Of a stretch of DNA of 64,000 bases, positions 37,013 through 58,004 are shown piece by piece (within the stretch, counting starts at the first letter, position 1; each line of letters begins with the position of its first letter). Source of the DNA: Streptomyces sp. V3I7 (GTDB lineage: Bacteria > Actinomycetota > Actinomycetes > Streptomycetales > Streptomycetaceae); contig NZ_JAUSZK010000001.1 in assembly GCF_030817495.1 (NCBI RefSeq), positions 5,914,001-5,978,000 of the forward strand, given 5' to 3'. The notes under the pieces were generated by a model. It was not told the origin of the DNA. It ran no database searches and saw only the letters and a list, made by a program, of their open reading frames with translations. A program made the translations under genes and the position numbers.

Positions 37013-37990
37013 TCAGTTCGGCCCTGCGGCGAACACCCGGCTGGCGAGGAAGTCCTCCGGCTCCAGCCGCATGAGGTCGTCCTTGCCCAGCGCCCCCGCG
37101 TCACCGTCCACCAGCCGGTTGGCCTGCCGCAGCCGGGCGCGCTCCACGGCGTTGCGGACACTGCGGGCGTTGGCGAACCGCGGCTGCTCGCGGCGCCGTT
37201 CCAGATAGTCCCGGACGGTGGAACGGGCCGCCGGGGACAGCTCGTATCCCTGCTCGCGCACGATGAGTTCGCTGATCTGCTCCAGCTCCTCCAGCGAGTA
37301 GTCGGGAAAGTCGATGTGGTGGGCGATGCGTGAACTCATCCCGGGGTTGGACTGGAAGAAGGTGTCCATCCGGTCCTTGTAGCCGGCCAGGACGACCACG
37401 AGGTCGTCGCGCTGGTTCTCCATCACCTGCAGCAGGATCTCGATGGACTCCTGCCCGTAGTCGCGCTCGTTCTCCGCGCGGTACAGGTAGTAGGCCTCGT
37501 CGATGAACAGCACGCCGCCCATGGCGCGTTTGAGGACCTCCTTCGTCTTCGGCGCGGTGTGCCCGACGTACTCGCCGACCAGGTCGTCCCGGGTGACGGT
37601 GACCAGATGGCCGCGCTCCAGATAGCCGAGCTGCTTGAGCAGCGCGGCCATCCGCAGGGCCACCGTCGTCTTGCCCGTGCCGGGACTGCCGGTGAACGAC
37701 ATGTGCAGGTTGGGCCGGTTGGACGAGAGGCCGAACCGCGCCCGCTGCCGGTCGACGAGCAGCAGCGCCGCGATCTGCCGGATGCGGGTCTTCACCGGGC
37801 GCAGGCCGACCAGTTCACGGTCCAGCGCGTCCAGTACGTCGTCCACGCCCGACTTGCGCCGCTCCGCGTCCAGGTCCACCGTCGCGTCGTCCGGCAGGAG
37901 TTGCTCCACCGGGTCGTCGGCGGCCGCCTCGGTGCCGGGTGCGGAGGGGCGCATACCGAAGGCCGGACGCCCCTGGTCGCCGCCGGTCAT
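37013..37990 (-). CDS. cbbX: red-type RuBisCO activase CbbX
   Basis: AAA+ chaperone (325 aa) that pulls the C-terminus of red-type RuBisCO large subunit to eject inhibitory sugar phosphates. Walker A is GSPGTGKTT near residue 100, Walker B is [14 protein letters not shown] near 155, followed by [25 protein letters not shown] and the sensor/arginine region [15 protein letters not shown]. The first 45 residues are an extra low-complexity segment. The ATG overlaps the stop of cbbS (ATGA), so activase and RuBisCO are co-translated. Presence of CbbX fits the form IC enzyme beside it. Confidence 0.95.
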
Positions 37991-38421
37991 CGGGGGCGGC
38001 CCGGCGCGTAACGCTCGCCGGAGGGGCGGTCGGTGGCGTACGCCTGCGTCGTGTACTGGATGCGGCGGTCGCTCACCTCGGTCCGCTGGAGCCGGAAACC
38101 GGGCTCGTCGTCGGGGCGGTTGACGATGAACGACAGCGCGGTGGTCTGCCGGCCGAGGCGCGCGTCGTAGGCGTTGACGCGGACGTAGTGCTGGGGGTAC
38201 GCCCGGCGGCACTCGTCGACCTCGAACATCACGCCCGCGGCGTCGCGCAGGTCGAACATCGGCAGGCCCCACATCTCCCAGTAGGTGTTGCGGGGGTGCG
38301 GGTCGTCGGTGAACTCCACCGACAGTGGCCAGTCGTTGTCCAGCGCGTACTGGATCTGCCGCTGGATCTCCTCGTCGGTCAGGTCGGGCAGGTAGGAGAA
38401 GGTGCCCTGGGTGATGCGCAT
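37987..38421 (-). CDS. cbbS: ribulose-bisphosphate carboxylase small subunit, red type
   Basis: A 144-aa RuBisCO small subunit. It starts [19 protein letters not shown] and contains the family core [28 protein letters not shown]. The extended C-terminus ([16 protein letters not shown]) is the beta-hairpin extension that distinguishes red-type subunits from green-type ones. GGAGG nine bases upstream of the ATG supports the start. It lies 21 bp after cbbL and overlaps cbbX, forming cbbLSX. It caps the L8 core in the L8S8 holoenzyme. Confidence 0.96.
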
Positions 38422-38442
38422 GTTCTTCGTTCCTCCCGGTCG

Positions 38443-41078
<2,636 letters not shown>

Positions 41079-41081
41079 ATC

Positions 41082-41270: not shown

Positions 41271-42674
41271 GTGGCTGCACTGTCCTTCCTGGACCGCGAG
41301 CACACGGTTGCCCGGCCCGGCTACAGTCGTTGGCTGATACCACCCGCTGCGCTCGCCATCCATCTCTGCATCGGCCAGGTCTACGCCACCAGCGTCTACA
41401 AGACCGCGCTGGTCCAGGACTTCGGCACGACGCTCACCTCGATCGGTGTCATCTTCTCCATCGCCATCGTCATGCTCGGCGTCTCGGCGGCGGTCATGGG
41501 CACCTGGGTCGACAAGGTCGGCCCGCGCAAGGCGATGTTCACCGCCGCCTGCTGCTGGTCCGCCGGATTCCTCATCGGCGCCCTCGGCATCGCCACCGAC
41601 CAACTGTGGCTCGTCTACGTCGGCTACGGCTTCATCGGCGGCATCGGACTCGGCATCGGCTACATCTCCCCGGTCTCCACGCTCATCAAGTGGTTCCCCG
41701 ACCGGCCGGGCCTGGCCACCGGCATGGCCATCATGGGCTTCGGCGGCGGCGCCCTCGTCGCCTCCCCGCTCTCCCGTGAGCTGCTCGCCTTCTACGACGG
41801 CCACGGCGACACGGCGGCGGTCGCCTCCGGCGGCGCGGTCGCCAAGCTGTTCGTGACCCTGGGAGTCGTCTACTTCCTGGTCATGATGCTGGGCGTCTTC
41901 ACCGTCCGCGTCCCGGCCCCCGGCTGGCGGCCGGACGGTTTCGACCCGGCGCAGCTGAAGGCCAAGCCGATGGTGACCACCGCGCACGTCTCCGCCGCCA
42001 ACGCCATCAGGACACCGCAGTTCTGGCTGCTGTGGACGGCGCTGTTCTGCAACGTCACCGCGGGCATCGGCATCCTGGAGCAGGCCGCCCCGATGATCCA
42101 GGACTTCTTCCGCAAGGGGGAGACGTCGAGCGTGACCGTGGCCGCCGCGGCCGGGTTCGTGGGCCTGCTGTCGATCTTCAACATGACCGGCCGCTTCGCC
42201 TGGTCCTCCGCCTCGGACTTCATCGGCCGCAAGCCGATCTACGTGGTCTACCTCGGTGTCGGCATGGTCCTCTACACCCTGCTCGCCCTGGTCGGGTCCA
42301 CGTCCACGGCCCTGTTCGTCCTCCTGGCCGCCGTCATCATCTCCTTCTACGGCGGCGGTTTCGCGACGGCTCCCGCCTATCTGCGGGACCTGTTCGGGAC
42401 GTACCAGGTCGGTGCCATCCACGGCCGGCTGCTCACCGCGTGGTCCATGGCGGGCGTCGTCGGACCGCTGATCATCAACGGCATCCTCGACGCGCGGGGC
42501 ACCCCCGGCGAGCTGACCGCGAGCGACTACCGGCCGGCGCTGTTCACCATGGTCGGTGTCCTGGCGGTCGGCTTCGTCGCGAACCTGCTCGTCCGGCCCG
42601 TCGCCGCCCGCTGGCACGAACCGGCCGGGACGCCGCAGACCAGCGCGGCCGCGCAGGCCGCCGCCCCCAACTGA
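41271..42674 (+). CDS. OFA family MFS transporter (oxalate/formate antiporter-like)
   Basis: A 467-aa twelve-helix major facilitator of the oxalate:formate antiporter family. Typical features: YSRWLIPPAALAIHLCIGQVYATSVYK in helix 1, GTWVDKVGPRKAMF in the loop 2-3 motif, and GYISPVSTLIKWFPDRPGLATGMAIMGFGGGALV in helices 4-5. ASDFIGRKPIY lies in loop 8-9 and GTYQVGAIHGRLLTAWSMAGVVGP near 400. The GTG start has a perfect AAGGAGG at six bases. Next to it are its small subunit gene and formate dehydrogenase, so formate or oxalate import is the likely task (inference; oxalate-degrading genes are absent here). Confidence 0.9.
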   Translation: MAALSFLDREHTVARPGYSRWLIPPAALAIHLCIGQVYATSVYKTALVQDFGTTLTSIGVIFSIAIVMLGVSAAVMGTWVDKVGPRKAMFTAACCWSAGFLIGALGIATDQLWLVYVGYGFIGGIGLGIGYISPVSTLIKWFPDRPGLATGMAIMGFGGGALVASPLSRELLAFYDGHGDTAAVASGGAVAKLFVTLGVVYFLVMMLGVFTVRVPAPGWRPDGFDPAQLKAKPMVTTAHVSAANAIRTPQFWLLWTALFCNVTAGIGILEQAAPMIQDFFRKGETSSVTVAAAAGFVGLLSIFNMTGRFAWSSASDFIGRKPIYVVYLGVGMVLYTLLALVGSTSTALFVLLAAVIISFYGGGFATAPAYLRDLFGTYQVGAIHGRLLTAWSMAGVVGPLIINGILDARGTPGELTASDYRPALFTMVGVLAVGFVANLLVRPVAARWHEPAGTPQTSAAAQAAAPN

Positions 42675-42745: not shown

Positions 42746-42880
42746 ATGTCGCAGAGCGCCACCAAGGCATCCGGCGGCCACACCGCGAGGATCGCCATCT
42801 CGTGGCTGATCGTCGGAGTACCGCTGGTGTACGGCGTCGTGCAGGCCGTCAACTCCAGCCTGCCGCTGTTCACCCGCTGA
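42746..42880 (+). CDS. MFS transporter small subunit (OFA-associated)
   Basis: A 44-residue single-pass membrane protein: HTARIAISWLIVGVPLVYGVVQAVNSS forms the one hydrophobic helix. It matches the small subunits annotated beside OFA-family carriers in many bacteria. GAAGGAG precedes the ATG at 42746. It lies 71 bp after the carrier gene and before fdsG on the same strand. Its exact job (stability or gating of the carrier) is not established. Confidence 0.8.
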   Translation: MSQSATKASGGHTARIAISWLIVGVPLVYGVVQAVNSSLPLFTR

Positions 42881-42976: not shown

Positions 42977-43450
42977 ATGAACCGAACGGAAATGAATCTG
43001 CCCGAACTCGTCCGGTGCGTCGTCGACGCCCACCGGCAGGAACCGGGACCCCTCCTGGTGGTTCTCCAGGACATCCAGGACCGGCTCGGTTACATCGATC
43101 CCGACGTCGTCCCGCTCGTGGCCGCGGAGTTGAACCTGTCCCGCGCCGACGTGCACGGCGTCGTCACCTTCTACCGGGACTTCCGCTCCAGGCCGCCGGG
43201 CAGGACGACCGTACGGGTGTGCCGCGCGGAGGCCTGCAGGTCGGTCGGCGCGGAGGACCTGCTCGCCGGTCTGGAGCAGACCCTCGGCGTCCGGGCCGGA
43301 CAGACCACGCCCGACGGCTCGGTGACCCTTGACCAGGTGTTCTGCCTGGGCAACTGCGCGCTGGGACCCGCGGCCCAGGTCAACGGCCGGCTGTACGGGC
43401 GTCTCGACCGGGACCGGCTGGCCGGCATGGTGCAGCGGGAGGCGTCATGA
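42977..43450 (+). CDS. fdsG: NAD-dependent formate dehydrogenase gamma subunit, NuoE-like
   Basis: A 157-aa thioredoxin-like [2Fe-2S] subunit. The N-terminal helices QEPGPLLVVLQDIQDRLGYI precede the cluster ligands CRAEACRS (near residue 82) and FCLGNCALGP (near 122), the four cysteines of NuoE/HoxE/FdsG. It passes electrons within the diaphorase module with FdsB. GGAG precedes the ATG and the gene overlaps fdsB by ATGA. Placed with fdsB, fdsA and fdsD, so assignment to formate dehydrogenase rather than to complex I is firm. Confidence 0.94.
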   Translation: MNRTEMNLPELVRCVVDAHRQEPGPLLVVLQDIQDRLGYIDPDVVPLVAAELNLSRADVHGVVTFYRDFRSRPPGRTTVRVCRAEACRSVGAEDLLAGLEQTLGVRAGQTTPDGSVTLDQVFCLGNCALGPAAQVNGRLYGRLDRDRLAGMVQREAS

Positions 43451-45000
43451 CCACGGTCTACGTGCCGCGGGACTCCGCGGCGACATCCGTCGGCGCCGAC
43501 GAGGTCGCCGAGGCCCTGCTGCGCGAGGCGCCGGCCACCGGCCGGGAGATCGAGGTGGTGCGCAACGGATCGCGCGGCATGCTCTGGCTGGAGCCCCTGG
43601 TGGAGGTCGTCACCGAGCGCGGCAGGATCGGCTACGGGCCCGTGTCGCCCGACGACGTCGCCGGCCTCGTCGCCGCCGGCATGCTCGAGGGCGAGCCCGA
43701 ACACGCCCTGTACCAGGGTCCGGTGGACGAACTGCCCTGGATGCGCGACCAGCAGCGGCTGTGCCTCGCCCGCGTCGGCCTCACCGACCCGCTGTCCCCC
43801 GAGGACTACCTCGCCCACGGCGGCCTCGCGGGCCTGCGCCGGGCCCTCGCACTCGACCCGTCCGACGTGGTCACCGAGGTCATGGACTCAGGACTGCGCG
43901 GCCGCGGCGGCGCCGGGTTCCCGGCCGGTATCAAGTGGCGCACCGTCGCCGGCACCGACGAGGACGTGAAGTACGTCTGCTGCAACGCCGACGAGGGCGA
44001 CAGCGGCACCTTCGCCGACCGGATGGTCATGGAGGGCGACCCGTTCGTCCTCATCGAGGGCATGACCATCGCCGCGTACGCCGTCGGCGCCCACGAGGGC
44101 TACCTCTACCTCCGCTCCGAATACCCCGACGCCGCCCAGGTGTTGCACCAGGCGATCGGCATCGCACGCGAGCGCGGCTGGCTCGGCGAGGACGTCCTCG
44201 GCTCCGGCTTCCGCTTCGACCTCCATCTGCGGATCGGCGCCGGGGCGTACATCTGCGGCGAGGAGACCTCCATGCTGGAGAGCCTGGAGGGCAAGCGCGG
44301 CATGGTGCGCGCCAAGCCGCCGATCCCGGCCCTCACCGGTCTGTTCGGCAAACCGACCGTCGTCAACAACGTCCTGACCCTCGCCAGCGTGCCGGCCATC
44401 CTCACCGACGGCGGCAAGGCGTACGCCGACCTGGGCGTCGACCGCTCGCGCGGCACCCAGGTGTTCCAGCTCGCCGGGAACATCGCGCGCGGCGGCGTCT
44501 TCGAGACCGCGTTCGGCATCAGCCTGGCCGACCTGGTCCACGGCTACGGTGGCGGCACCCGCTCGGGCAGGCCCCTGCGCGCCGTCCAGGTCGGCGGCCC
44601 GCTGGGCCCGTACCTGCCGGCCTCCCAGCTCGAACTGCCCACCGACTACGAGGCGTTCGACGCGGCCGGGGCGATGCTGGGGCACGGCGGGATCGTCGTC
44701 TTCGACGACACCGTGGACATGGCCGGCATGGCGCGCTACGCGATGGCGTTCTGCGCCGAGGAGTCCTGCGGCAAGTGCACTCCCTGCCGGATCGGCTCCG
44801 TCCGCGGGGTCGAGGCGATCGACCGCATCACCGCCGGGGAGGACCCCGAGGCCAACCTCGGCCTGCTGAACGACCTGTGCGAGCTGATGACCGACGGCTC
44901 GCTGTGCGCGATGGGAGGACTGACGCCCAACCCGGTGCGGAGCGCGCTGCTGCACTTCCCGGAGGACTTCACCGCTCGACGCGAGGAGGCGGCACAATGA
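43447..45000 (+). CDS. fdsB: NAD-dependent formate dehydrogenase beta subunit, NuoF-like
   Basis: A 517-aa FMN- and NAD-binding diaphorase subunit. An N-terminal thioredoxin-like domain of about 110 residues is fused ahead, as in FdsB/HoxF. The NADH site GLRGRGGAGFPAGIKW is near residue 145, and FMN contacts are CNADEGDSGTFADRMVMEGDP near 180. The C-terminal [4Fe-4S] motif is ESCGKCTPCRIG near 440. It reduces NAD+ with electrons from formate. ATGA junctions on both sides indicate tight translational coupling. Confidence 0.95.
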   Translation: MTTVYVPRDSAATSVGADEVAEALLREAPATGREIEVVRNGSRGMLWLEPLVEVVTERGRIGYGPVSPDDVAGLVAAGMLEGEPEHALYQGPVDELPWMRDQQRLCLARVGLTDPLSPEDYLAHGGLAGLRRALALDPSDVVTEVMDSGLRGRGGAGFPAGIKWRTVAGTDEDVKYVCCNADEGDSGTFADRMVMEGDPFVLIEGMTIAAYAVGAHEGYLYLRSEYPDAAQVLHQAIGIARERGWLGEDVLGSGFRFDLHLRIGAGAYICGEETSMLESLEGKRGMVRAKPPIPALTGLFGKPTVVNNVLTLASVPAILTDGGKAYADLGVDRSRGTQVFQLAGNIARGGVFETAFGISLADLVHGYGGGTRSGRPLRAVQVGGPLGPYLPASQLELPTDYEAFDAAGAMLGHGGIVVFDDTVDMAGMARYAMAFCAEESCGKCTPCRIGSVRGVEAIDRITAGEDPEANLGLLNDLCELMTDGSLCAMGGLTPNPVRSALLHFPEDFTARREEAAQ

Positions 45001-47798
45001 CCCGGTTCAAGGAACCCGACCTCGGCACGCCCGGCCTGCCCGGTGCGGCTACCGTCACGGTGGAGATCGACGGGCAGCCGGTGGCGGTGCCGGAAGGCAC
45101 CTCGGTGATGCGCGCCGCCGCCCTGTCCGGCACCGACATCCCGAAACTGTGCGCCACCGACAGCCTTGAGGCGTTCGGCTCCTGCCGGCTCTGCCTGGTG
45201 GAGATCGACGGCCGCAAGGGCACCCCGGCCTCCTGCACCACCCCGGTGACCGAGGGGATGAAGGTCCGCACCCAGACACCGCGCCTCCACAAGCTGCGCC
45301 AGGGCGTCATGGAGCTGTACATCTCCGACCACCCTCTGGACTGCCTGACCTGCCCCGCCAACGGCGACTGCGAACTCCAGGACATGGCGGGCGTCGTCGG
45401 ACTGCGTCAGGTGCGCTACGGCTACGAGGGCGAGAACCACCTCGACCTGGAGACCGATCACAGCAACCCCTACTTCGACTTCGACGCGTCCAAGTGCATC
45501 GCCTGCTCCCGGTGCGTGCGCGCCTGCGGCGAGATCCAGGGCACCTTCGCGCTCACCATCGAGGGCCGCGGCTTCGAGTCCAAGGTCTCCGCCGGGGCGG
45601 GCGAGTCGTTCCTGGACTCCGAGTGCGTCTCCTGCGGTGCCTGCGTCCAGGCCTGCCCGACCTCCACCCTCCAGGAGAAGTCGGTGGTGCAGCTGGGCAT
45701 GCCGACCCGCAGCGTCCAGACCACGTGCGCGTACTGCGGCGTGGGCTGCACCTTCAACGCCGAACTGCGCGGCGACGAACTGGTCCGCATGGTGCCCGCC
45801 AAGGACGGCGGCGCCAACGAGGGCCACTCGTGCGTCAAGGGGCGCTTCGCGTTCGGCTACGCCACCCACCCCGATCGCGTCCTCAAGCCCATGGTGCGGG
45901 AGAACATCACCGACCCGTGGCGCGAGGTCGAGTGGGACGAGGCGATCCGCACCGTCGCCACGCGCATGCGCGACATCCAGCAGCGGTACGGCGCGGGCTC
46001 GATCGGCGCCATCTCCTCCTCGCGCTGCACCAACGAGGAGGTCTTCGTCGTCCAGAAGATGGTGCGCGCGGCCTTCGGCAACAACAACGTCGACACCTGC
46101 GCCCGCGTCTGCCACTCACCCACGGGCTACGGGCTCAAGCAGACCTTCGGTGAGTCCGCCGGCACCCAGGACTTCCGCTCGGTCGCGGACGCCGACGTGA
46201 TCGTGCTCATCGGCGCCAACCCCACCGACGGACACCCCGTGTTCGCCTCCCGGATGAAGCGCCGGCTGCGCGAGGGCGCCCAGCTGGTCGTCATCGACCC
46301 GCGCCGCATCGACCTCGTCCGCTCACCCCACGTCGAGGCCGCCCACCACCTCCAGCTGCGCCCGAGCACCAACGTGGCCGTCATCAACGCCATGGCCCAC
46401 GTGGTGGTCACCGAGGGCATGGTCGACAAGGCCTTCGTCGCCTCCCGCTGCGAAGGGTTCGACGAATGGGCCGAGTTCGTCGCCCGCCCCGAGAACAGCC
46501 CCGAGGCCACCGAACCGGTCACGGGCGTCCCCGCGGGCCAACTCCGGGCCGCGGCACGGCTGTACGCGCAGGCACCCAACGGCGCCATCTACTACGGCCT
46601 CGGCGTCACCGAGCACAGCCAGGGCTCCACCATGGTCATGGGGATGGCCAACCTCGCGATGGCCTGCGGCAACCTCGGCCGCGAGGGCGTCGGCGTCAAC
46701 CCGCTGCGCGGCCAGAACAACGTCCAGGGGTCGTGCGACATGGGCTCCTTCCCGCACGAGTTCAGCGGCTACCGCCATGTCACCGACGACGCCGTACGCA
46801 CCGTCTTCGAGGAGCTGTGGGGCCGGGCCCTCCTCCCCGAACCCGGACTGCGCATCCCCAACATGTTCGACGCCGCGATCGACGGCACCTTCCGCGGGCT
46901 GTTCGTGCACGGCGAGGACATCGCCCAGTCCGACCCCAACCTCCGGCACGTCGCCGCCGCGCTCGGCGCGATGGAACTCGTCGTCGTGCAGGACCTGTTC
47001 CTCAACGAGACGGCCGAGTTCGCGCAGGTCTTCCTGCCCGGCGCCTCCTTCCTGGAGAAGGACGGCACCTTCACCAACGCCGAACGCCGGATCAACCGGG
47101 TGCGCATGCTGATGCCGCCGAAGTCGGGCAGGCACGAGTGGGAGATCGTCTGCGACATCGCCACCGCCATGGGCTACCCGATGGCGTACGACCACCCGAG
47201 CCAGATCATGGAAGAGATCGCCCGGACCACACCGACCTTCAGCGGCGTGACGTACGAACTGCTCGACAAGCTCGGCAGCGTCCAGTGGCCCTGCAACGAA
47301 CAGGCACCCACCGGCACGCCGACCATGCACGTCGACGAATTCGTGCGCGGCAAGGGCAGGTTCATGGTCACCGCATACGTCCCCACCGACGAGCGGACCA
47401 CCTCCCGCTTCCCGCTGATCCTGACCACGGGACGCATCCTCACCCAGTACAACGTCGGCGCGCAGACCCGCCGTACGGACAACGTGGCCTGGCACGCCGA
47501 GGACGTGCTCGAGCTGCACCCGCACGACGCCGAGGTCCGCGGCATCCACGACGGCGACCTCGTGACACTGGCCAGCCGCGTCGGGAGCACCAGCCTGCAC
47601 GCCCGCGTCTCCGACCGCATGCCGCCGGGCGTCGTCTACACCACGTTCCACCATCCGGTGACCGGCGCCAACGTGGTGACCACCGAGAACTCGGACTGGG
47701 CGACCAACTGCCCGGAGTACAAGGTGACGGCTGTACAGGTCGCGCTCGCCCACCCGCTTCAGTCCCCTCAGGGCGACCGGCTCGCGGCGGTGGACTGA
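44997..47798 (+). CDS. fdsA: NAD-dependent formate dehydrogenase alpha subunit, Mo/W-bis-MGD type
   Basis: Catalytic subunit (933 aa): formate to CO2. Domains in order: a [2Fe-2S] ferredoxin-like domain (GSCRLCLVEIDG near residue 62), then a His/Cys cluster site (DHPLDCLTCPANGDC). Two [4Fe-4S] sites follow (CIACSRCVRAC and CVSCGACVQAC), then the molybdopterin domain cluster CAYCGVGC near 244. The metal-ligand cysteine is C372 in ARVCHSP, so this is a cysteine, not selenocysteine, enzyme. NPLRGQNNVQGSCDMG is diagnostic of formate dehydrogenases. The C-terminal molybdopterin-dinucleotide domain ends the protein. Oxygen-tolerant cytosolic FdsABG/FdhAB enzymes share this build. Confidence 0.96.
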   Translation: MTRFKEPDLGTPGLPGAATVTVEIDGQPVAVPEGTSVMRAAALSGTDIPKLCATDSLEAFGSCRLCLVEIDGRKGTPASCTTPVTEGMKVRTQTPRLHKLRQGVMELYISDHPLDCLTCPANGDCELQDMAGVVGLRQVRYGYEGENHLDLETDHSNPYFDFDASKCIACSRCVRACGEIQGTFALTIEGRGFESKVSAGAGESFLDSECVSCGACVQACPTSTLQEKSVVQLGMPTRSVQTTCAYCGVGCTFNAELRGDELVRMVPAKDGGANEGHSCVKGRFAFGYATHPDRVLKPMVRENITDPWREVEWDEAIRTVATRMRDIQQRYGAGSIGAISSSRCTNEEVFVVQKMVRAAFGNNNVDTCARVCHSPTGYGLKQTFGESAGTQDFRSVADADVIVLIGANPTDGHPVFASRMKRRLREGAQLVVIDPRRIDLVRSPHVEAAHHLQLRPSTNVAVINAMAHVVVTEGMVDKAFVASRCEGFDEWAEFVARPENSPEATEPVTGVPAGQLRAAARLYAQAPNGAIYYGLGVTEHSQGSTMVMGMANLAMACGNLGREGVGVNPLRGQNNVQGSCDMGSFPHEFSGYRHVTDDAVRTVFEELWGRALLPEPGLRIPNMFDAAIDGTFRGLFVHGEDIAQSDPNLRHVAAALGAMELVVVQDLFLNETAEFAQVFLPGASFLEKDGTFTNAERRINRVRMLMPPKSGRHEWEIVCDIATAMGYPMAYDHPSQIMEEIARTTPTFSGVTYELLDKLGSVQWPCNEQAPTGTPTMHVDEFVRGKGRFMVTAYVPTDERTTSRFPLILTTGRILTQYNVGAQTRRTDNVAWHAEDVLELHPHDAEVRGIHDGDLVTLASRVGSTSLHARVSDRMPPGVVYTTFHHPVTGANVVTTENSDWATNCPEYKVTAVQVALAHPLQSPQGDRLAAVD

Positions 47799-48018: not shown

Positions 48019-48027
48019 GCGAGCGAA

Positions 48028-48071: not shown

Positions 48072-48085
48072 TGGTGGCGCGGCCG

Positions 48086-49064: not shown

Positions 49065-51326
49065 TCATGCCTTGCCGGTGATGCCGGTCAGTGCGGCCTC
49101 CACGACCGCCGGCACCGTGAAACCGAGGGCGCGGTACACGACCGGCCCGGGCGCACTCGCGCCGAACCGGTCCAGCCCGATGACCTGATCGCCGGGCCGG
49201 GCCAGGGCCCGCCACCCGTGCGGCACCCCCGCCTCCACCCACACCGCCGGACAGTGCGGCAGCAGCCCCGGGTCGGCCGCCAGCGCCTCCTCGAACCGCT
49301 CGCGCCAGGGCACGGAGACGACCCGGACCGCGACACCGCGCGCGTCCAGCTCCTCGGCGGCGGCGCACGCCAGCGCCACCTCCGACCCGGTCGCGAGCAG
49401 GACCGTCTCCGGGGCGTCGGCGCTCTCGCGGACGACCTGGCAGCCGTACCGGGCCAGCGTGCTCGCGGACACCGGGGCGAGCACCGGCAGGTCCTGGCGG
49501 CTGAGCACCAGTGCCGTCGGCCCGTCACTCCGCTCCAGTGCCAGCTGCCAGCAGGCGGCCGTCTCGTTGGCGTCGCCCGGGCGCAGCACCGCCAGCCCGG
49601 GGACGAGCCGCAGCGACTCCAGCTGCTCCACCGGCTGATGCGTCGGCCCGTCCTCGCCGACCGCGATCGAGTCATGGGTGAAGACGAACACCACCGGCAG
49701 CTTCATCAGCGCCGCCAGCCGCAGCGTGGGCCGCAGGTAGTCGGAGAACACCAGGAAGGTACTGCCGTACGGCCTGAACTCCCCGTGCAGGGCCATCCCG
49801 TTGAGCACCGCGCCCATGGCATGCTCACGGATCCCGAAGTGCAGGGTGCGCCCGTCGTACGCCCCCGGCCCGACGTCCCCCACGCCCGGGATCGTCGTGT
49901 TGGTCGAGGCCGCCAGATCCGCCGAACCCCCGACCAGCGCCGGGTAGGCCGGGCCGACCGCGGCCAGCACGGCACCGGACGCCTTGCGGGTGGCCATGGA
50001 TGTTCCGGGCTCGAACTCCGGGAGCAGCGATTCGAGTTCGGGCGGAGAGGCCGAGGGGCTCCACTGCGCGGCGAGGTCGGGGCGGTCCTCGGCCCAGCGC
50101 GCCCGGTCGAACTCCCAGGAGACGCGGTCCGTACGTCCCTTGTCGGCCAGCCGGCGGCAGTACTCCGCGACGGCGGCGGGGACGTGGAACACCTCGTCCG
50201 GCCGGCCGAATCGTCGCCGCGTGGCCGCCAGTTGTGCCTCACCGAGCGGCGCCCCGTGCGCCGCGCTCGTTCCGGCCACGGTGGGTGCGCCGTACCCGAT
50301 CGTCGTCCGTACGGCGACGAGGCTCGGCCGGGTCTCGTCGGCGACCGCGGCGGCCAGGGCTGCCGTCACCGCGTCGGCGTCGTTGCCGTCGGCCACCCGC
50401 AGTGTCTGCCAGCCGTAGGCGGCGAAGCGCGCCAGCACGTCGTCCCGGCAGGACCCGGTGGCCGCTCCGTCGATGGTGATGTCGTTGTCGTCGTAGAGGA
50501 CGATGAGCCGGCCGAGCTCCAAGTGCCCGGCGAGGGAGGCCGCTTCGTGGCTGATGCCCTCCATCAGGTCGCCGTCGCCCGCGAGCACCCATGTGCGGTG
50601 CCCGACGACCGTGTGCTCGGCGGTGTTGCACCGGGTGGCCAGCATCCGCTCCGCGAGCGCCATGCCCACCGCGTTGCCCAGTCCCTGGCCCAGCGGGCCG
50701 GTGGTGGTCTCCACACCGGGGGTGTGACCGTACTCGGGATGTCCCGGCGTCGCCGAGCCCCACTGGCGGAACCGGCGCAGCTCGTCGAGCGGGAGGTCGT
50801 AGCCGAACAGATGCAGCAGCGCGTACAGCAGCATCGAGCCGTGGCCGGCGGACAGTACGAACCGGTCGCGGTCCGGCCAGGCTGGGTCGCTCGGGTCGTG
50901 GCGCAGGAAGCGCGACCACAGCACCCACGCCGGGACCGCGGCGCCCATCGGCAGCCCGGGGTGCCCGCTGCCCGCCGCCTCCACGGCGTCGGCGGCGAGC
51001 AGCCGGATCGTCGCCGCCGCCTGGGCGTCGAGGTCGTCGGGGGCGGGCGCGAGATCGGCTGGCGCCGGGCCGGGTGGGGCGGTGTGTGACTCGTCCGTGG
51101 GCGTGGGTCCGGGCGGGGTGGTGTGCGGCCTGTCCGTGGGCACTGGGCCGGGCGGGGCGGCCGGCCGGCTGTTCGTGGGTGTGAGGCGGGGCGGGGCGGT
51201 GTGTGACTGGTCTGAGGGCGTGGGTCCGGGTGGGGCGGTCGGCCGGCTGTCCGTGGACGCCGGGCTGGGCGGGGCGGCGTGGGACCTGGGCGGGACGGTG
51301 TGCGGCCTGTCCGTGGACGCGCTCAT
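49065..51326 (-). CDS. tkt: transketolase with repetitive N-terminal extension
   Basis: Thiamine-diphosphate enzyme (753 aa) moving two-carbon units among C3-C7 sugar phosphates for RuBP regeneration. The catalytic body begins at about residue 97 ([20 protein letters not shown]). It has [24 protein letters not shown], the diphosphate motif [27 protein letters not shown]-like MATRKASG, and FGIREHAMG. The first 96 residues are a Pro/Thr-rich extension with five 13-residue repeats, absent from ordinary transketolases. AAGGAGG stands five bases before the ATG and the start overlaps rpe, so the extension really is translated. It may be a linker or interaction region; function unknown. Confidence 0.93.
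51060..51254. repeat. 39-bp minisatellite, five units, inside tkt
   Basis: Five in-frame 39-bp units encode residues 25-89 of transketolase; unit sequences run like [13 protein letters not shown] and [14 protein letters not shown] degenerate extra unit lies in residues 4-24. Units are similar but not identical at the DNA level, so the array is not brand-new. Confidence 0.85.
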
Positions 51327-52048
51327 GCTGCCTCCTTGGTGTCCTTGTCGTGGGAAGCCGGGCCCGGTGCCGCCTGCGCGGCCAGCGCGCGCAGGGCCGT
51401 CACCTCCTCGGCGAGATGGGCCCGTTCGCGGAACAGCGCGCTGCCCGCGCAGAACGTCGTGGCACCGGCCCGCGCGGCGCCGGCGATGGTGCCCCGGCCG
51501 ATGCCGCCGTCGACCTCCAGCTCGATGTCCCGCCCGGACCGGGCGATGAGGTCACGGGCGGCGGAGATCTTCGCCTCCATGGAGGCGAGGTAACGCTGGC
51601 CGCCCCAGCCCGGGTTGACCGTCATGACGAGCAACAGGTCGATGCCGTCGAGGACATGCTCTACCGCGCTCAGCGGGGTGGCAGGATTGAGCGCCACTCC
51701 GGCCCGCGCCCCCAACTCCCTTACGGCGTCGAGGGTGCGGTGCAGATGGCGCGTCGCCTCGGCGTGGACGATGATGATCTCGCAGCCCGCGTCCACCCAG
51801 TGCCGCAGCATCCGGTCCGGCTCCTCGACCATCAGATGGGCCTCGAACCCGAGGTCCACCAGCGGGCGCACCGACGCGATGACGTCCGGTCCCATGGTCA
51901 TGTTGGGCACGAACACCCCGTCCATGACGTCCCACTGGATGCGGTCCACCCCGGCCCGCTCCAGCAGCCGGCACTCGTCCCCCAGCCGTGAGAAGTCGGC
52001 CGGGAGGACGGATGGGACGATGCGCGGGGGCGATGCGGTCGAGTTCAT
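51323..52048 (-). CDS. rpe: ribulose-phosphate 3-epimerase
   Basis: Interconverts xylulose 5-phosphate and ribulose 5-phosphate. The 241-aa TIM barrel shows [16 protein letters not shown], the metal/active-site strand [19 protein letters not shown] (near residue 40), and [30 protein letters not shown] lies near 145, followed by [13 protein letters not shown] near 180. AGGAGG precedes the ATG at 52048. First gene of the rpe-tkt-prk operon, divergent from the response regulator gene across 121 bp. Confidence 0.96.
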
Positions 52049-52169: not shown

Positions 52170-52832
52170 ATGGAAGACCGACCGCTGCGGGTCGTGCTCG
52201 TCGACGACCACGAGATGGTGCTCGAGGGACTGAAGACGCTGCTGGCGCGGTTCGCGCGCCGCGTACGCGTGGTGGGCCAGGCCGCGGACGCTGCCGACGG
52301 CGCGCGTGTCGTCGCGGCGTTCGACCCCGACATCGTCGTCTCCGACGTACGCCTGCGCGGCCCCGCCAGCGGCCTCGACCTGTGCCGGCGGCTCGTCGAG
52401 ACAGAACCCGAGCGGAAGGTCGTCCTGCTGAGCGCGTACGACGACGAGCAGTATCTCTACCAGGCGCTGCGGGCCGGAGCGGTCGGCTATCTGCTCAAGT
52501 GGATGGGCGGCGAGGAGCTGGTACGGCACATCGAGCGGGCGGCGTCGGGTGAGGTCGTCGTGGACCCGACCATGGCCGGCCGGGCCGCCGTGTCCGCGGC
52601 GCGGCTCCAGGCCGGGGAGTTCTGGCCCGGCGCAGCGCTCGGCCTCACCCAGCGGGAGAGCGAGGTCCTCTCGCTGCTCGTCGCCGGGCTGTCCAACCGT
52701 GCCATCGCCGGCCGGCTCGTCCTCGGCGGGGAGACGGTCAAGAGCCATGTGGCCTCGCTCTACCGCAAGTTGGAGGTCAACGACCGGGCGGGCGCGGTGG
52801 CGGCCGCGCTGAGGGAGGGGATCTTCCGGTGA
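52170..52832 (+). CDS. NarL/LuxR-family response regulator
   Basis: A 220-aa two-component regulator. The receiver domain has acidic pair D12/D13 in LVDDHEM, phosphoacceptor D59 in VVSDVRL, a conserved Ser/Thr position in VLLSAYDDEQ, and Lys in YLLKWMGG. The DNA-binding domain is LTQRESEVLSLLVAGLSNRAIAGRL then TVKSHVASLYRKL (residues 153-205). Its stop overlaps the histidine kinase start (GTGA). It lies between the two halves of the cbb gene set and divergent from rpe, so cbb genes are candidate targets. Confidence 0.93.
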   Translation: MEDRPLRVVLVDDHEMVLEGLKTLLARFARRVRVVGQAADAADGARVVAAFDPDIVVSDVRLRGPASGLDLCRRLVETEPERKVVLLSAYDDEQYLYQALRAGAVGYLLKWMGGEELVRHIERAASGEVVVDPTMAGRAAVSAARLQAGEFWPGAALGLTQRESEVLSLLVAGLSNRAIAGRLVLGGETVKSHVASLYRKLEVNDRAGAVAAALREGIFR

Positions 52833-54154
52833 GGGTGGGGAGCGGCAGCGAGGGTGCTGGTGGAGGTGGCATGGCTGACGAGGGCGACGGGGCCGGTGAG
52901 GCCGACGCGGCGACCGGCGGGCACGATCACGGCCTCGGTCTCGCCGACCCCGAGCGCGAGAACGCGCTGCTGGTCGGCATCATCGAGGCGATCTCCGCCG
53001 GCCCGGACCTCGGACCGCTCGCCGCCAACGTCGCCGGGCTCATCTCGGAGGCCACCGCCACCGACGTGTGCTTCGTGCACGTCCTCGACGACACCGGTGA
53101 GTCCCTCACGCTCACGGGCGCGACCCCGCCCTTCGACCGCGAAGTCGGCCGTGTCCGGCTGCCGATCGGCGAGGGCGTGAGCGGCTGGGTGGCCAGCCAC
53201 CAGGAGCCCGTGGTCATCACGGACCACAAGGAGGACGACCCCAGGTACCGCTACTTCCCCCAACTCCGCGGCCAGGACTACACGTCCATGCTCTCGGTGC
53301 CCATGGCGAGCCGCCCCGGCGGGTTCGTCGGCATCCTCAACGTCCATACGCGCGACCGCCGCGAGTTCACCGACCGGGACGTCCGCCTGCTCACCTCGAT
53401 CGGCAGCCTCGTCGCCGGAGCGATGCACCAGGCCCGGCTGCACCGCAGGCTGGCCGCCCGCGAGCGCGCGCTGGAGCGGTTCGCCGAGCAGATCATCGAC
53501 GCGCAGGAGGGGGAGCGGCGCCGGCTGGCGTCCGACATACACGACGGCATCGCCCAGCGGCTGTTCAGCCTCCGCTTCCATCTCGACGCGGCGGCCGACG
53601 CCCTCGCCGACGCGCCCGACTTCACCGCCGAGCAGCTCGTCCACGCCCGCCGCCTCACCGGCCTCACCCTGGACGAGGCCCGCGCGGCGGTCAACGACCT
53701 GCGCCCGCCCGTCCTGGACGACCTCGGTCTCGCCGACGCCCTGACCAGTCTGGCCCGTTCGGTCCCGACCGTCGACGTGACCGTGGACGTCGAGGAGTGC
53801 CGCCTGCCCGAGCACGTGGAGATCGCCCTCTACCGCATCGCGCAGGAGGCCCTCCAGAACGTCGTCAAACACGCCGAGGCCACCCAGGTCCGCCTCGAAC
53901 TGCACGGCGACGCCGATGAGATGTCGCTGCGCGTCTTCGACGACGGCCGTGGCTTCGACCTCGCCGCCCCCGCTGCTTCTCCCGCGCCCGCGTCCGAGCA
54001 GCCGAACGGCAGCGGATACGGCATGGGCAGCATGGCCGAACGCGCCGAACTCGTCGGCGGCCGCCTTCAGGTGTGGTCCCACCCCGACCACGGCACGACG
54101 GTCATCGCCAAGGTGCCGACTGCCGCAACAGGGCCGCGGCATCAGGATCGTTGA
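52829..54154 (+). CDS. soluble GAF-domain sensor histidine kinase (NarX/DesK-like)
   Basis: A 441-aa kinase without membrane segments. An acidic/glycine-rich tail of about 40 residues is followed by a GAF domain (residues 45-195, with VRLPIGEGVSGWVASHQEPVVI and SMLSVPMASRPGGFVGILNVHT). Next comes a HisKA_3 domain with the phospho-accepting His at about residue 238 in LASDIHDGIAQRLF, and an HATPase with ALYRIAQEALQNVVKHA and DDGRGFD. It should phosphorylate the preceding regulator. GAF suggests a small cytosolic ligand or redox cue, unidentified. Its last 53 bp overlap the convergent cbbY gene. Confidence 0.93.
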   Translation: MRVGSGSEGAGGGGMADEGDGAGEADAATGGHDHGLGLADPERENALLVGIIEAISAGPDLGPLAANVAGLISEATATDVCFVHVLDDTGESLTLTGATPPFDREVGRVRLPIGEGVSGWVASHQEPVVITDHKEDDPRYRYFPQLRGQDYTSMLSVPMASRPGGFVGILNVHTRDRREFTDRDVRLLTSIGSLVAGAMHQARLHRRLAARERALERFAEQIIDAQEGERRRLASDIHDGIAQRLFSLRFHLDAAADALADAPDFTAEQLVHARRLTGLTLDEARAAVNDLRPPVLDDLGLADALTSLARSVPTVDVTVDVEECRLPEHVEIALYRIAQEALQNVVKHAEATQVRLELHGDADEMSLRVFDDGRGFDLAAPAASPAPASEQPNGSGYGMGSMAERAELVGGRLQVWSHPDHGTTVIAKVPTAATGPRHQDR

Positions 54155-54815
54155 AGCCGTCGAAGACCGCCAGGGCACCGGTGAAGTCCTGCCCGCGGGT
54201 GTAGTCGTTCGTCACGACGACACAGGGCAGCCCCGCGTCCAGCGCCGCGGTGAGGCCGTTGGCCGAGTCCTCGACGGCGAGGGCCTGTTCGGGTCCTACG
54301 CCGAGGCGTGCCAGCACCTCGCGGTAGACCGCCGGGTCCGGTTTGAGCGTCCGTACGTCGGTGCCGGTGACCACCTCCGCGAACGTGTCCGCCCCGAACA
54401 GCCGCTCCAGCAGCGGCTCGACCCACGCCAGGGTGCCGGTCGTGGCGACGGCGAGGGTGACGCCCGCCTTCTGGAGATCGGCGATCAGCTCGGGTACGCC
54501 GGGACGCGCCGGGACGCGACCCTGCGCGACCAACTCCCGGAACCGGGCCGTCTTGTCCGCGTGCAGCGCCGCCGCGAGCACCGACGCCTCCTCTGGTTCG
54601 TACTCCTGCTCCTCCAGGAACACGGCGATGCGCCTGCGTCCGCCGGTGACGTCCAGCAGACGGCCGTACGCCTCGACGCTCCACCGGTACGGCAGCCCCG
54701 CCGCTGCGAACGCCGCGTCGAAGGCGACCCGGTGGCCGTCCCGCTCGCTGTCGACGAGCGTGCCGTCGACGTCGAAGACGACCACGGTCCGGCCGGCGTC
54801 GTCAGGCCGGCGCAT
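54102..54815 (-). CDS. cbbY: CbbY-type HAD phosphatase (xylulose-1,5-bisphosphate phosphatase)
   Basis: A 237-aa HAD-IA phosphatase. Nucleophile motif FDVDGTLVDSERDGHRVAF, cap segment YGRLLDVTGGRRRIAVFL, motif II VATTGT, lysine in TLKPDPAVY, motif III EDSANGLTAA. The ERDGHRVAF and TGGRRRI stretches are those of CbbY rather than of plain phosphoglycolate phosphatase (Gph). CbbY removes xylulose 1,5-bisphosphate, a misfire product that blocks RuBisCO after CbbX releases it. It starts 14 bp inside the aldolase gene end, and its 3' end overlaps the kinase gene on the other strand by 53 bp. Confidence 0.87.
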   Translation of the reverse strand: MRRPDDAGRTVVVFDVDGTLVDSERDGHRVAFDAAFAAAGLPYRWSVEAYGRLLDVTGGRRRIAVFLEEQEYEPEEASVLAAALHADKTARFRELVAQGRVPARPGVPELIADLQKAGVTLAVATTGTLAWVEPLLERLFGADTFAEVVTGTDVRTLKPDPAVYREVLARLGVGPEQALAVEDSANGLTAALDAGLPCVVVTNDYTRGQDFTGALAVFDGFNDPDAAALLRQSAPWR

Positions 54816-55839
54816 GCGCGTCTTCCAGGGCGTCGGTGTAAGTCCCCTGGAGCGCGGCCGTGTTGCACGCCACCCGGTGCGCGAGGGCCCGCTGCCCGGC
54901 GCTCACCCGCCCGGGCTCGCCGTGCCAGGCGGCCAGCGCCGGGTCGACGAGGCCCCGGCCGAAGGAGAAGGTGAGCGGCCACGGCGTCTCCAGCCGTTGC
55001 ATCGCGGCGAGGTGGGCGGTGGCCCGCGCGGCGCTCTGCCCGCCCGACAGGAACGCGATCCCCGCGACGCGCTCGTCCACGGCGGCACGCAGCACCGTGA
55101 CCGTGGCCCGGGCGACCTCGTCCGGCGTGACGACTTCGAAGGAGTCCCGCCCCGGCACCACCATGTTCGGCTTGAGCACGATGCCCTCCAGGTCCACCCC
55201 CGCCGCCTCCAGCTCGGCGAACACCGCGCGCAGCACCTCGGACGTGACCGCCGCGCACCGGGCGGTGCCGTGCGCGCCCTCCATCAGGACCTCGGGCTCC
55301 ACGATCGGCACGATCCCGGCCTCCTGGCACAGCGCCGCGTACCGGGCGAGCGCGTGGGCGTCCGCCCGCACCTTCCACGGGGACGGCTGCCCGGCCCCGG
55401 TGCCGGTCCCCGCCCCGATGCCGACGACCGCCCGCCACTTGGCGAAACGGGCGCCCAGAGCGGCGTACTCGGCGAGCCGTTCCCGCAGACCGTCCAGCCC
55501 CTCGGTCACCGTCTCGCCCGGGGCGCCCGCCAGGTGCCTGGCGCCGGTGTCCACCTTGATGCCGGGCAGCAGCCCGAGCTGTGCCATGGCCTCGGGGAAC
55601 GTGCGTCCGTCGGCCAGGGACTGGCGGAAGGTCTCGTCGCACAGGATCACCCCGCTGATGCCGCTGGCGAGCCGGGGCGTGGTGACGAGCAGTTCGCGGT
55701 AGGCCCGGCGGTTCTCCTCGGTCGGCGCGACGCCGGTCTTCTCCAGCCGGGCGGACATCGTGGCGATGCTCTCGTCGGCGGCGAGGATTCCCTTTCCGGG
55801 AGCCACCATCTGGGCGGCGGTGCGGGCGAGTTCGGTCAT
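54802..55839 (-). CDS. fba: fructose-bisphosphate aldolase class I
   Basis: Schiff-base aldolase (345 aa) forming fructose 1,6-bisphosphate and sedoheptulose 1,7-bisphosphate. Shown by VAPGKGILAADES at the N-terminus, GVILCDETFRQS near 65, KWRAVV near 135, VEPEVLMEG near 180, and IVLKPNMVVPG near 220 with the Schiff-base lysine. Streptomyces usually rely on a class II zinc enzyme, so a class I gene inside this cluster looks dedicated. The ATG at 55839 has GGAAGGAG 10 bases upstream; a GTG at 55848 is too close to that site. Confidence 0.93.
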   Translation of the reverse strand: MTELARTAAQMVAPGKGILAADESIATMSARLEKTGVAPTEENRRAYRELLVTTPRLASGISGVILCDETFRQSLADGRTFPEAMAQLGLLPGIKVDTGARHLAGAPGETVTEGLDGLRERLAEYAALGARFAKWRAVVGIGAGTGTGAGQPSPWKVRADAHALARYAALCQEAGIVPIVEPEVLMEGAHGTARCAAVTSEVLRAVFAELEAAGVDLEGIVLKPNMVVPGRDSFEVVTPDEVARATVTVLRAAVDERVAGIAFLSGGQSAARATAHLAAMQRLETPWPLTFSFGRGLVDPALAAWHGEPGRVSAGQRALAHRVACNTAALQGTYTDALEDAHAPA

Positions 55840-55844
55840 CGCGG

Positions 55845-56924
55845 TCACGCTCCTTCCTGAGCGGCGGGTCGGGAAGAGGGGGCGGGGTCGTGCAGGTGGT
55901 AGTCGACGACGCCGTACGCGCCGAGCCGGGCGAGGCTGTGCTCGCTGCGGAGGAAGCGGACGGTGCCGCTGCGGGCCCGCATGACCAGCGACTCGGTCGA
56001 GGCCCGGCCGGGGCCGTAGCGCACGCCGCGCAGCAGCTCGCCGTCGGTGACGCCCGTCGCGACGAAGAAGGCGTCGTCGCCGGTGACGAGATCGTCGGTC
56101 GTGAGGACGCGGTCGAGGTCGTGCCCGGCGTCCAGGGCCCGGCGCCGCTCCGCCTCGTCACGCGGCGCCAGCCTGCCCTGGAGCACCCCGCCGAGACACT
56201 TGACGGCACAGGCGGTGATGATCCCCTCCGGCGTGCCGCCGACACCGAGGAGCAGGTCGACGCCCGTATCGTCGCGGGCCGCCATCACCGCACCCGCCAC
56301 GTCGCCGTCGGAGATGAACTTGATCCGCGCCCCCGCCCGGCGCACCTGCTCGGCCAGGCCGGTGTGGCGCGGCCGGTCGAGGATGCAGACGGTGATGTCC
56401 TCGGGGGCGCAGCCCTTGGCCCTCGCGACCGCGCGCACGTTGTCGGCGACGGGCGCCTCGATGTCGACGGCACCGGCGGCCACCGGCCCGGTCACGAGCT
56501 TGTCCATGTAATACACGGCGGACGGGTCGAACATCGACCCGCGCGGGCTCACCGCGAGCACCGACAGCGCGTTGCCCATGCCCTTCGCCGTCAGGGTCGT
56601 CCCGTCGATCGGGTCCACGGCCACGTCGCAGCCGGCCCCGGTGCCGTCGCCGACGCGCTCACCGTTGTAGAGCATCGGCGCCGCGTCCTTCTCGCCCTCG
56701 CCGATGACCACGACGCCGCGGACGGGCACGGTGCCGATCATCGCGCGCATGGCGTCGACGGCGGCCTGGTCGGCGCCGTTCTTGTCGCCGCGCCCCACCC
56801 ACCGCCCGGCCGCCATCGCCGCGGCCTCGGTGACGCGCACCAGGTCGAGGGCGAGGTTGCGGTCGGGGCGGGGGCGGACCGCCCTGGTGCTGCGTGTACC
56901 GACGTCGGCCGGTGTCGTCGTCAT
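55845..56924 (-). CDS. glpX: fructose-1,6-bisphosphatase class II (GlpX)
   Basis: A 359-aa lithium-sensitive-fold phosphatase. The metal site runs [17 protein letters not shown] near residue 42, [15 protein letters not shown] near 78, and [12 protein letters not shown] near 107, followed by [20 protein letters not shown] near 230. In bacterial Calvin cycles, GlpX-type enzymes often hydrolyse both fructose 1,6- and sedoheptulose 1,7-bisphosphate; no separate SBPase is present here, so a dual role is inferred. It lies 87 bp after cbbR and nearly abuts the aldolase gene. Confidence 0.95.
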
Positions 56925-57011
56925 GTCACTCTCCCTCCTGGGCAGAACGACCGCCCCGCACGCGGTCGGGGTGGTGCGGAGGGTGTACGGGGCGGCGTTC
57001 CGGAAGCGACG

Positions 57012-58004
57012 TTAGGCGTGCGGGGTGGCCGGCTTCGCCCCCCGCCGGGTGGAAAGCGCGGGGGAGACGGGGGAGTTGGGGGAGCGGGTCGGGCTGGTGG
57101 AGCGAGGGGCACGCCAGCCGCCCGCAGCGCCATCGCCGTCGTCACCGCCCCCGTCGTAAAGAAGGTGGTCGAGGAGCAGGGTGGTGGTCGCGGACGTCCG
57201 GGTGTGGGTCACGGCATGCCAGGGCCTGCGCAGGGGCGTGTCCGGGACCGCGACCTCGACCAACTCGCCGGCGGCCAGGTGCGGGGCGACCGCGTCACGG
57301 GAGACGAGGGTCGCGCCGAGCCCGGTCACGGCTCCGGCGACCACGGCCCCGTTGGAGCCCAACGTCAGCCGGGGCGGGTCGAGTTGGCGACCGGCAAGCA
57401 GGGCCTCGCAGGTGACACGGGTGCCCGAGCCGGCCTCGCGCAGCAGCCAGGTGGTGCGGCCCGGATCGAAGTCCTCGGCGAGCCCGGGGGCGACGACGGC
57501 CACCAGTTCGTTGGCCCGAACGGCCCGCGTGACGACGTCGTCGAGCCCGTGGGGCGGCCGTCCGGCGACGACGAGATCGGCCTGATGGGCGGCCAGCAGC
57601 CCCCACACCCGCTCGCTCGTGCCGACTTCGAGCCGCAGATCCACCGCGGGGTACCGGGTCAGGAACCCCGCGATCACGGCGGGCATGACGTGCTCCCCGG
57701 CGGTCGTCACCGCGGCGACCCGCACCCGCCCGCGCTCCGGATCGACGTCGCCCCGCGCGGCGGTGAGCGCCTCGTCGTGCAGCCCGAGGATGGTGCGGGC
57801 GTATCCGGCGTACGTCTGCCCGGACGGCGTCAGGCACACGCCTCGGCCCACCCGCTCCACCAGTGGTACGCCGACCTCCCGGGTGAGCGCGGCGACGGCC
57901 GCCGACACGGCCGACTCCGTCACGACGAGACGCTGCGCCGCCACCTTCACCGACCCGGTCTCGGCTAGAGCGACGAAGGCGCGCAGCCGGGCAGTGGTCG
58001 TCAT
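57012..58004 (-). CDS. cbbR: CbbR-type LysR regulator
   Basis: A 330-aa LysR regulator. Winged helix ARLRAFVALAETGSVKVAAQRLVVTESAVSAAVAALTREVG; effector domain with ADLVVAGRPP, TWLLREAGSGTRVTCEALL and LTLGSNGAVVAGAVTGLGATLVSRDAV, all typical of CbbR/CysL proteins that sense Calvin-cycle metabolites. GAGGAGGGG precedes the ATG at 58004. It is the first gene of the cbbR-glpX-fba-cbbY run on the same strand, so it may regulate its own operon. The C-terminal 30 residues are Gly/Asp-rich and poorly conserved. Confidence 0.85.
   Translation of the reverse strand: MTTTARLRAFVALAETGSVKVAAQRLVVTESAVSAAVAALTREVGVPLVERVGRGVCLTPSGQTYAGYARTILGLHDEALTAARGDVDPERGRVRVAAVTTAGEHVMPAVIAGFLTRYPAVDLRLEVGTSERVWGLLAAHQADLVVAGRPPHGLDDVVTRAVRANELVAVVAPGLAEDFDPGRTTWLLREAGSGTRVTCEALLAGRQLDPPRLTLGSNGAVVAGAVTGLGATLVSRDAVAPHLAAGELVEVAVPDTPLRRPWHAVTHTRTSATTTLLLDHLLYDGGGDDGDGAAGGWRAPRSTSPTRSPNSPVSPALSTRRGAKPATPHA

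Follow-up and report, generated by a model that had tools for sequence, protein, structure and literature searches.

A form IE Calvin cycle gene cluster with an internal formate dehydrogenase module in a Streptomyces chromosome

The chromosome of Streptomyces sp. V3I7 carries a form IE-type Calvin cycle (cbb) cluster, at 37013-58004 of the window, that encloses a carrier gene and the formate dehydrogenase genes fdsGBAD as a self-contained formate module, and we consider formate-supported CO2 fixation to be its likeliest function, with moderate confidence. The window, which is the whole 64,000-nucleotide stretch analyzed here, comprises bases 5914001-5978000 of a 6.49-Mb contig (C1) in a genome of 6.55 Mb and two contigs. 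The genes are ordered as cbbX-cbbS-cbbL (-), LysR-carrier-small open reading frame (ORF)-fdsGBAD (+), prk-tkt-rpe (-), response regulator-kinase (+), cbbY-fba-glpX (-), and cbbR (-), as listed in Table 1. A first-pass annotation of this DNA had already named most of these genes and had reported the active-site residues of RuBisCO and formate dehydrogenase as present. By using curated family models and Pfam, all of the named genes were found with intact frames at the positions given there, and active-site motifs, the residues of which presumably have the catalytic roles that we attribute to them, were found in CbbL, FdsA, and phosphoribulokinase (PRK); the NarL-type response regulator and the GAF histidine kinase (52170-54154), which lie within the cluster, had gone unlisted.

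To place the ribulose-1,5-bisphosphate carboxylase/oxygenase (RuBisCO), the relatives of CbbL were collected by a scan of GTDB species genomes, and the best 80 of at least 592 confirmed relatives were used, for 43 of which the loci include 10 kb on both sides. The start of cbbL was corrected from 39831 to 39873 (476 aa), based on the N-terminus of the family and an AGGAG ribosome site, and the product was found to have the catalytic motifs, with CbbS and CbbX as its partners. In a rapidly built tree (97 rows), CbbL was within a clade of 73 rows from Actinomycetota, Chloroflexota, and Acidobacteriota (Shimodaira-Hasegawa-like approximate likelihood ratio test [SH-aLRT], 97), where it had no supported sister, and seven proteobacterial rows (SH-aLRT 100) and two smaller actinobacterial groups fell outside this clade. 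Because the clade includes Pseudonocardia ammonioxydans, which is cited among form IE isolates (PMC9561532), the RuBisCO was named form IE, a name adopted from that paper for a tree that holds no form ID row; the RuBisCO of Pseudonocardia has been called form IC instead (PMC4269115). With the class read in this way, cbbLS encode a form IE RuBisCO, for which a carboxylase function is predicted.

The formate dehydrogenase genes stand in the order fdsG, fdsB, fdsA, and fdsD. FdsA has the Mo-site cysteine and aligns over its full length with the solved FdsABG enzymes 6TG9 and 9WXB, and the product of fdsB, which was detected only by NuoF-like models, is 87% identical to an FdsB-type protein from Streptomyces sp. 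NPDC046805. Neither fdsC nor fdhD is present in the cluster itself, and the sulfurtransferase FdhD (PF02634), which is accessory for such enzymes, is encoded elsewhere in the genome in two copies at approximately 386 and 411 kb from the cluster. These two genes, at C1:6336917-6337657 (-) and C1:6362303-6363043 (+), have equal scores and opposite directions and are 25 kb apart, and they might reflect either an inverted duplication or an artifact of assembly.

In the synteny comparison with other actinomycetes that the first-pass annotation had proposed, the nearest cluster found was that of Carbonactinospora thermoautotrophica (genome G392, of which the PRK is identical to a protein named from that species), and it has the same backbone, consisting of cbbXSL, a slot, prk-tkt-rpe, the regulator-kinase pair, and cbbY-fba-glpX, with identities to the window of 91% for CbbL, 79% for CbbS, 76% for CbbX, 74% for CbbR, and 72-85% for the eight genes from prk to glpX. 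The two clusters differ in what lies between cbbL and prk: this slot contains cbbR (+) and hypF (-; 786 bits vs a cut-off of 466) in Carbonactinospora, with no fds within the 40 kb examined, whereas it contains the LysR-carrier-ORF-fdsGBAD genes (+) in the window, where cbbR comes after glpX. Because the similarity to Carbonactinospora upstream of cbbL ends near 39997, one edge of the slot was placed there. The other edge is between fdsD and prk, at a perfect 20-bp inverted repeat, and no convincing flanking repeats that would mark an insertion were found in the window. The proximity of cbbR to glpX seen in the window recurs in Kineosporia sp. R_H_3 (locus L059), locus L060, and genome G411, where, however, cbbL and cbbR are divergently oriented. 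Therefore, it may be that cbbLSX moved in the window with cbbR being kept by glpX, rather than that cbbR moved. With regard to descent or transfer of the cbb genes, the identity to Carbonactinospora was 86.7% for an rpoB fragment, compared with 91% for CbbL and 82% for PRK, and with regard to the origin of fds, FdsA was 87% identical to that of a Streptomyces with an rpoB identity of 96% and 83% identical to that of an Amycolatopsis with an rpoB identity of 82%. As for tkt, an upstream in-frame ATG at 51326, which overlaps the end of rpe, would add approximately 60 residues at the N-terminus, and this putative extension consists of degenerate proline-rich repeats of 13 aa (39-nt repeats, 51029-51278); no comparable extension was evident in Carbonactinospora.

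The first-pass annotation had reported a CbbR and a second LysR-type regulator, and both genes are there, with the one adjoining glpX being CbbR and the one beside cbbL being of the fds type (FdsR-like). Orthologues of CbbR (at least 40% identity) were present in 57 of the 80 cbb loci, divergent from cbbL in 40, after cbbX in 15, and in another order in two, and its best solved relative was 5Y2V, a regulator of a RuBisCO operon. Because the cut-off of the NCBIfam CbbR model (450 bits), which is rhodobacterial judging by its name, was missed (122 bits for CbbR and 69 bits for the other LysR), the CbbR label is based on synteny. The LysR beside cbbL had been a candidate for CbbR, given its divergent position, and was rejected because it had no orthologue at 40% in the cbb loci of the 80 relatives and its orthologues of 59-64% immediately preceded fdsG, as was seen at 4 of 23 fds loci (2 of 13 in other Streptomyces, at 63-64%, and 2 of 10 elsewhere). 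Its best solved relative was OxyR, and in 7 of the 13 Streptomyces loci, a LysR of 40-42% occupies another position near fds instead. The cluster is, hence, one in which cbbL and CbbR are parted. A conserved dyad is nevertheless present in the cbbL promoter, and it matched at 22 of 22 positions, a score that is high by construction, as the seed was made from Carbonactinospora and the window, compared with 16 for the next distinct site in the window and 14-15 for eight shuffled windows (spacers of 5-8 allowed). The other relatives served as the test: with the spacer fixed at 7, at least 15 of 23 positions were matched in 34 of the 80 other upstream regions versus 7 of 1620 shuffled ones, and in this setting, the window itself scored only 14, its own spacer being one base shorter. 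CbbR presumably binds this dyad. A sigma-70 promoter scan gave 0 sites vs 0.5 expected. The kinase and response regulator pair, for which counterparts were found in relatives, belongs to the cluster.

The distribution of these genes was examined in samples of 392 and 393 Streptomyces genomes, which were partly overlapping draws from a larger group. In agreement with the first-pass view that the trait is not usual in the genus, this form I RuBisCO was found in 1 of 392 genomes, the strain's own, and fds in 30 of 392, including its own (FdsA, 81-88%; in two pieces in one genome). The RuBisCO-large model matched in 9 of 392, and the proteins of the eight others, being 29-33% identical to the CbbL of the window, were rejected as the same enzyme. 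The RuBisCO-like proteins at the Streptomyces loci L082, L083, and L084 (genomes G284, G205, and G278) scored 423-428 bits at approximately 33% identity, with no further cbb match in the stretches examined, and G278 also has fds. Because PRK proteins of 86-89% that are assigned to Streptomyces sp. NPDC005202, to S. bottropensis, and to a multispecies record occur among the best 120 of 2327 matches, the genus samples miss some genomes with these genes, and the Calvin cycle genes, as far as these matches tell, are rare and not unique in Streptomyces. None of the 13 loci examined in other Streptomyces with fds has cbb genes, and fdsA (at 50%), fdsD (at 40%), and the carrier (at 50%) were found in 0 of the 80 nearest RuBisCO loci, 43 of which extend 10 kb to either side. 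Furthermore, 9 of 36 named form IE genomes, drawn from these 80 and searched whole, have FdsA of 72-83%, in ten copies, with no cbb match in the 16-19 kb around them. On a plasmid of Azoarcus KH32C, fds and cbb are approximately 47 kb apart, and they share one replicon at a distance of hundreds of kb in Azospirillum lipoferum 4B (both among the best 40 of 365 and 30 of 80 rows). Taken together, the presence of fds and cbb in one genome is not new, and their presence as one cluster was found only here among the matches listed. Streptomycetales isolates with form IE RuBisCO and group 1h hydrogenase have already been published (PMC9561532), as have older reports of autotrophic Streptomyces, namely, strain G26 and S. 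thermoautotrophicus, which is now Carbonactinospora (cited in PMC4585250 and PMC10173188). No published description of such a cluster in Streptomyces was found in titles and abstracts, among which few subscription journals were covered, and the occurrence of fds within a form IE cluster looks new.

The carrier, a putative transporter for formate, lactate, or another monocarboxylate, scored 310 bits vs a cut-off of 320 in the lactate carrier model and 128 bits vs 335 in that of the oxalate:formate antiporter (TIGR04259). Its best public match, at 91%, was from Streptomyces sp. NPDC046805 (best 120 of 5802 matches). Because this match and that of FdsB (best 120 of 6952) are both on contigs of 221,897 bases, the carrier and fds are probably together in that strain, which was not among the best 120 of 2327 PRK matches. 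No such carrier was present beside fds in the 13 other Streptomyces loci or in 10 fds loci elsewhere. The ORF of 44 aa following the carrier, which the first-pass annotation had called its small subunit, had no Pfam match, and that label is unverified. The suggested supply of formate from oxalate was weakened because the carrier misses the antiporter cut-off and no oxalyl-CoA decarboxylase was found above the cut-off in the genome (best, 177 vs 739 bits). With oxalate decarboxylase being outside the search, oxalate as a feed for the system was rejected or left open.

Two further observations were made in the window. Adjoining cbbR, at 58108-59391, is a gene whose product combines a GNAT domain (N-terminal) with an AAA ATPase domain (C-terminal), and no similar gene was found in the loci of the 80 relatives. 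Two identical tRNA-Pro(GGG) genes, at 5844-5918 and 21842-21916, are codirectional and separated by 16 kb that include sugar-type ABC transporter genes. Beyond the genes themselves, their identity extends by only 1 and 0 bases.

Table 1. Features of the cbb-fds cluster, with positions in the window.
Feature	Position	Strand	Evidence
cbbX, red-type RuBisCO activase	37013..37990	-	TIGR02880, 494 bits vs cut-off 459
cbbS, RuBisCO small subunit	37987..38421	-	PF00101, 139 bits
cbbL, large subunit of form IE-type RuBisCO	38443..39873	-	761 bits vs cut-off 438; tree; motifs
Conserved dyad in cbbL promoter, presumed CbbR operator	39936..39964	-	ACTCAAGTAT-N6-AAAGACTTGATGG
LysR regulator, fds type (FdsR-like), not CbbR	40077..41078	+	orthologues before fdsG
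OFA-type major facilitator superfamily (MFS) carrier, putative formate/lactate/other monocarboxylate	41271..42674	+	family models; 6G9X, 8HPJ
44-aa ORF after carrier, candidate carrier small subunit	42746..42880	+	sequence only
fdsG, formate dehydrogenase gamma	42977..43450	+	189 bits, just below cut-off 198
fdsB, formate dehydrogenase beta (NAD side)	43447..45000	+	NuoF-like models only, 438 bits vs cut-off 559
fdsA, formate dehydrogenase alpha, Mo-site cysteine motif	44997..47798	+	TIGR01591, 910 bits vs cut-off 666
fdsD, formate dehydrogenase delta	47800..48018	+	PF11390, 64 bits vs cut-off 27
Perfect inverted repeat of 20 bp, flanked by the convergent fdsD and prk genes	48027..48072	.	z -5.7
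prk, phosphoribulokinase	48086..49036	-	386 bits vs cut-off 236
tkt, transketolase	49065..51143	-	769 bits vs cut-off 682
rpe, ribulose-phosphate 3-epimerase	51323..52048	-	242 bits vs cut-off 213
NarL-type response regulator	52170..52832	+	family search; counterpart in 40/80 relatives' loci
GAF histidine kinase	52871..54154	+	family search; counterpart in 39/80 relatives' loci
cbbY, xylulose-1,5-bisphosphate phosphatase type (HAD phosphatase)	54102..54815	-	best matches are solved CbbY structures, 4UAR 168 bits
fba, class I fructose-bisphosphate aldolase	54802..55848	-	460 bits vs cut-off 250
glpX, class II fructose-bisphosphatase	55845..56924	-	368 bits vs cut-off 259
cbbR, LysR regulator of cbb genes	57012..58004	-	synteny with relatives; 5Y2V

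In the function that we favor, formate would be taken up and then oxidized by FdsGBAD to CO2 and NADH, with the NADH being used for respiration and for the reduction of 3-phosphoglycerate. CO2 would be fixed by CbbLS, with ribulose 1,5-bisphosphate being regenerated via the products of fba, glpX, tkt, rpe, and prk, and CbbX and CbbY would keep RuBisCO active. CbbR would act in trans on the conserved element of the cbbL promoter, the LysR beside cbbL would serve the carrier and fds genes, and the kinase and regulator pair may adjust the cluster in response to a redox or carbon signal. Of this picture, the genes, their order, and the conserved promoter element are seen in the sequence, and the substrate of the carrier, the regulation, the flux, and growth are inferred. 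Cupriavidus necator likewise has an NAD-dependent Mo formate dehydrogenase (FdsGBACD) that feeds a Calvin cycle with red-type RuBisCO, and its fds and cbb are separate loci, whereas they are in one cluster in the window, without fdsC and fdhD there. Growth on formate via Fds and the Calvin cycle is known from C. necator (see PMC11540253).

Several points weigh against the favored function. The gene order had been read in the first-pass annotation as a sign of formate supply, and fds is indeed physically joined to the Calvin set, but fds is transcribed opposite to cbbLSX and prk-tkt-rpe, and the 20-bp hairpin parts fdsD from prk, for which reasons fds and cbb as one transcription unit were rejected. 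In addition, fds occurs without this RuBisCO in 29 of the 391 other Streptomyces that were sampled, and it, therefore, has a use of its own. The better fit of the carrier to the lactate carrier model than to that of the oxalate:formate antiporter, a HofG-type hydrogenase nearby, and the support, which is from sequence, are to be counted on the same side. The cycle is near-complete as far as the genes of the cluster go, with the lower-cycle and pentose-isomerase genes of the genome (pgk, gap, tpi, and rpi) being outside the search.

The absence of a hydrogenase or CO dehydrogenase nearby, as stated in the first-pass annotation, holds within the window, but a hydrogenase cluster is present to the left, with subunit genes 44-47 kb from cbbX. 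The large subunit, encoded at C1:5903878-5905623 with the small subunit adjoining, matches HofG (5AA5), which we take to be a group 1h [NiFe] hydrogenase, over the full length with 1017 bits (next, 164), and hypA, hypB, hypC, hypD, hypE, hypF, and a maturation protease were found above their cut-offs near it (C1:5895511-5908335), in keeping with a hydrogenase of the actinobacterial (1h-like) type. A HypX-like gene, named from its translation only, is at 5893760, to the left of this region. As for CO dehydrogenase, the form I motif AYxCSFR was absent at the four coxL-like (PF20256) places of the genome, with other coxL families being outside the search, and this donor was rejected or left open. 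It is a possible but rather unlikely explanation that hydrogen is the main donor, in a trace-gas chemosynthesis or for persistence, and that fds burns formate independently for energy or detoxification. In many Streptomyces, hydrogenases of this type occur in the absence of RuBisCO, and in this strain the hydrogenase is 44 kb off, whereas fds lies within the cluster. The large subunit of a distantly related hydrogenase (25-27% identity) was, however, found near cbbL in the loci of 14 of the 80 relatives, 13 of them mycobacterial, and most form IE genomes are reported also to have a high-affinity hydrogenase or CO dehydrogenase, with Streptomycetales being named among the isolates that have both (PMC9561532). 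The window is like these atmospheric chemosynthesis systems in its RuBisCO clade and in the HofG-type hydrogenase of its chromosome region, and it differs from them by fds inside the cluster; in the text examined of PMC9561532, which cites the description of Streptomyces nanshensis (its reference 86) among sediment isolates, formate has 0 mentions. The hydrogenase and this published pairing weaken formate as the only energy source, the role that the first-pass annotation had implied, and hydrogen is probably a second electron source.

Less probable still is a role of RuBisCO as an electron or carbon-salvage sink in mixotrophy and not in autotrophy, where formate would be one of several sources of NADH and CO2. 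This would fit a facultative and accessory occurrence (1 of 392 and 1 of 393 Streptomyces genomes in the two samples) and the sensor kinase and response regulator kept in such clusters, although the repair and activation genes and the dedicated regeneration enzymes are present as in autotrophs. That the cluster was acquired recently and is silent or only partly functional in this strain is very unlikely: it is rare in the genus, and cbbL is separated from cbbR, but the frames are all open, the promoter element is kept amid changed surroundings, and the G+C content of the cluster is 71.7% vs 71.5% for the window.

This analysis suggests that this bacterium may be able to use formate, and perhaps hydrogen, in support of CO2 fixation. 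Along with the form IE backbone, Carbonactinospora has cbbR and hypF, mycobacteria have a hydrogenase near cbb, and the window has FdsR-carrier-FdsGBAD. We tentatively propose that actinobacterial form IE clusters hold an exchangeable electron-donor slot and that this Streptomyces could be a true facultative formatotroph, in which such an exchange would have joined formate oxidation to CO2 fixation, with CbbR acting in trans via the conserved promoter element. Carbonactinospora and the window share a carbon-fixing backbone with different donor genes and, hence, offer a defined comparison. Because 9 of 36 form IE genomes have fds elsewhere, the question of formate is wider than one strain. If formate feeds the cluster, it would become, alongside H2 and CO, a candidate energy source for form IE bacteria, and a genetically tractable, antibiotic-producing genus would be naturally equipped to turn a cheap C1 compound into biomass.

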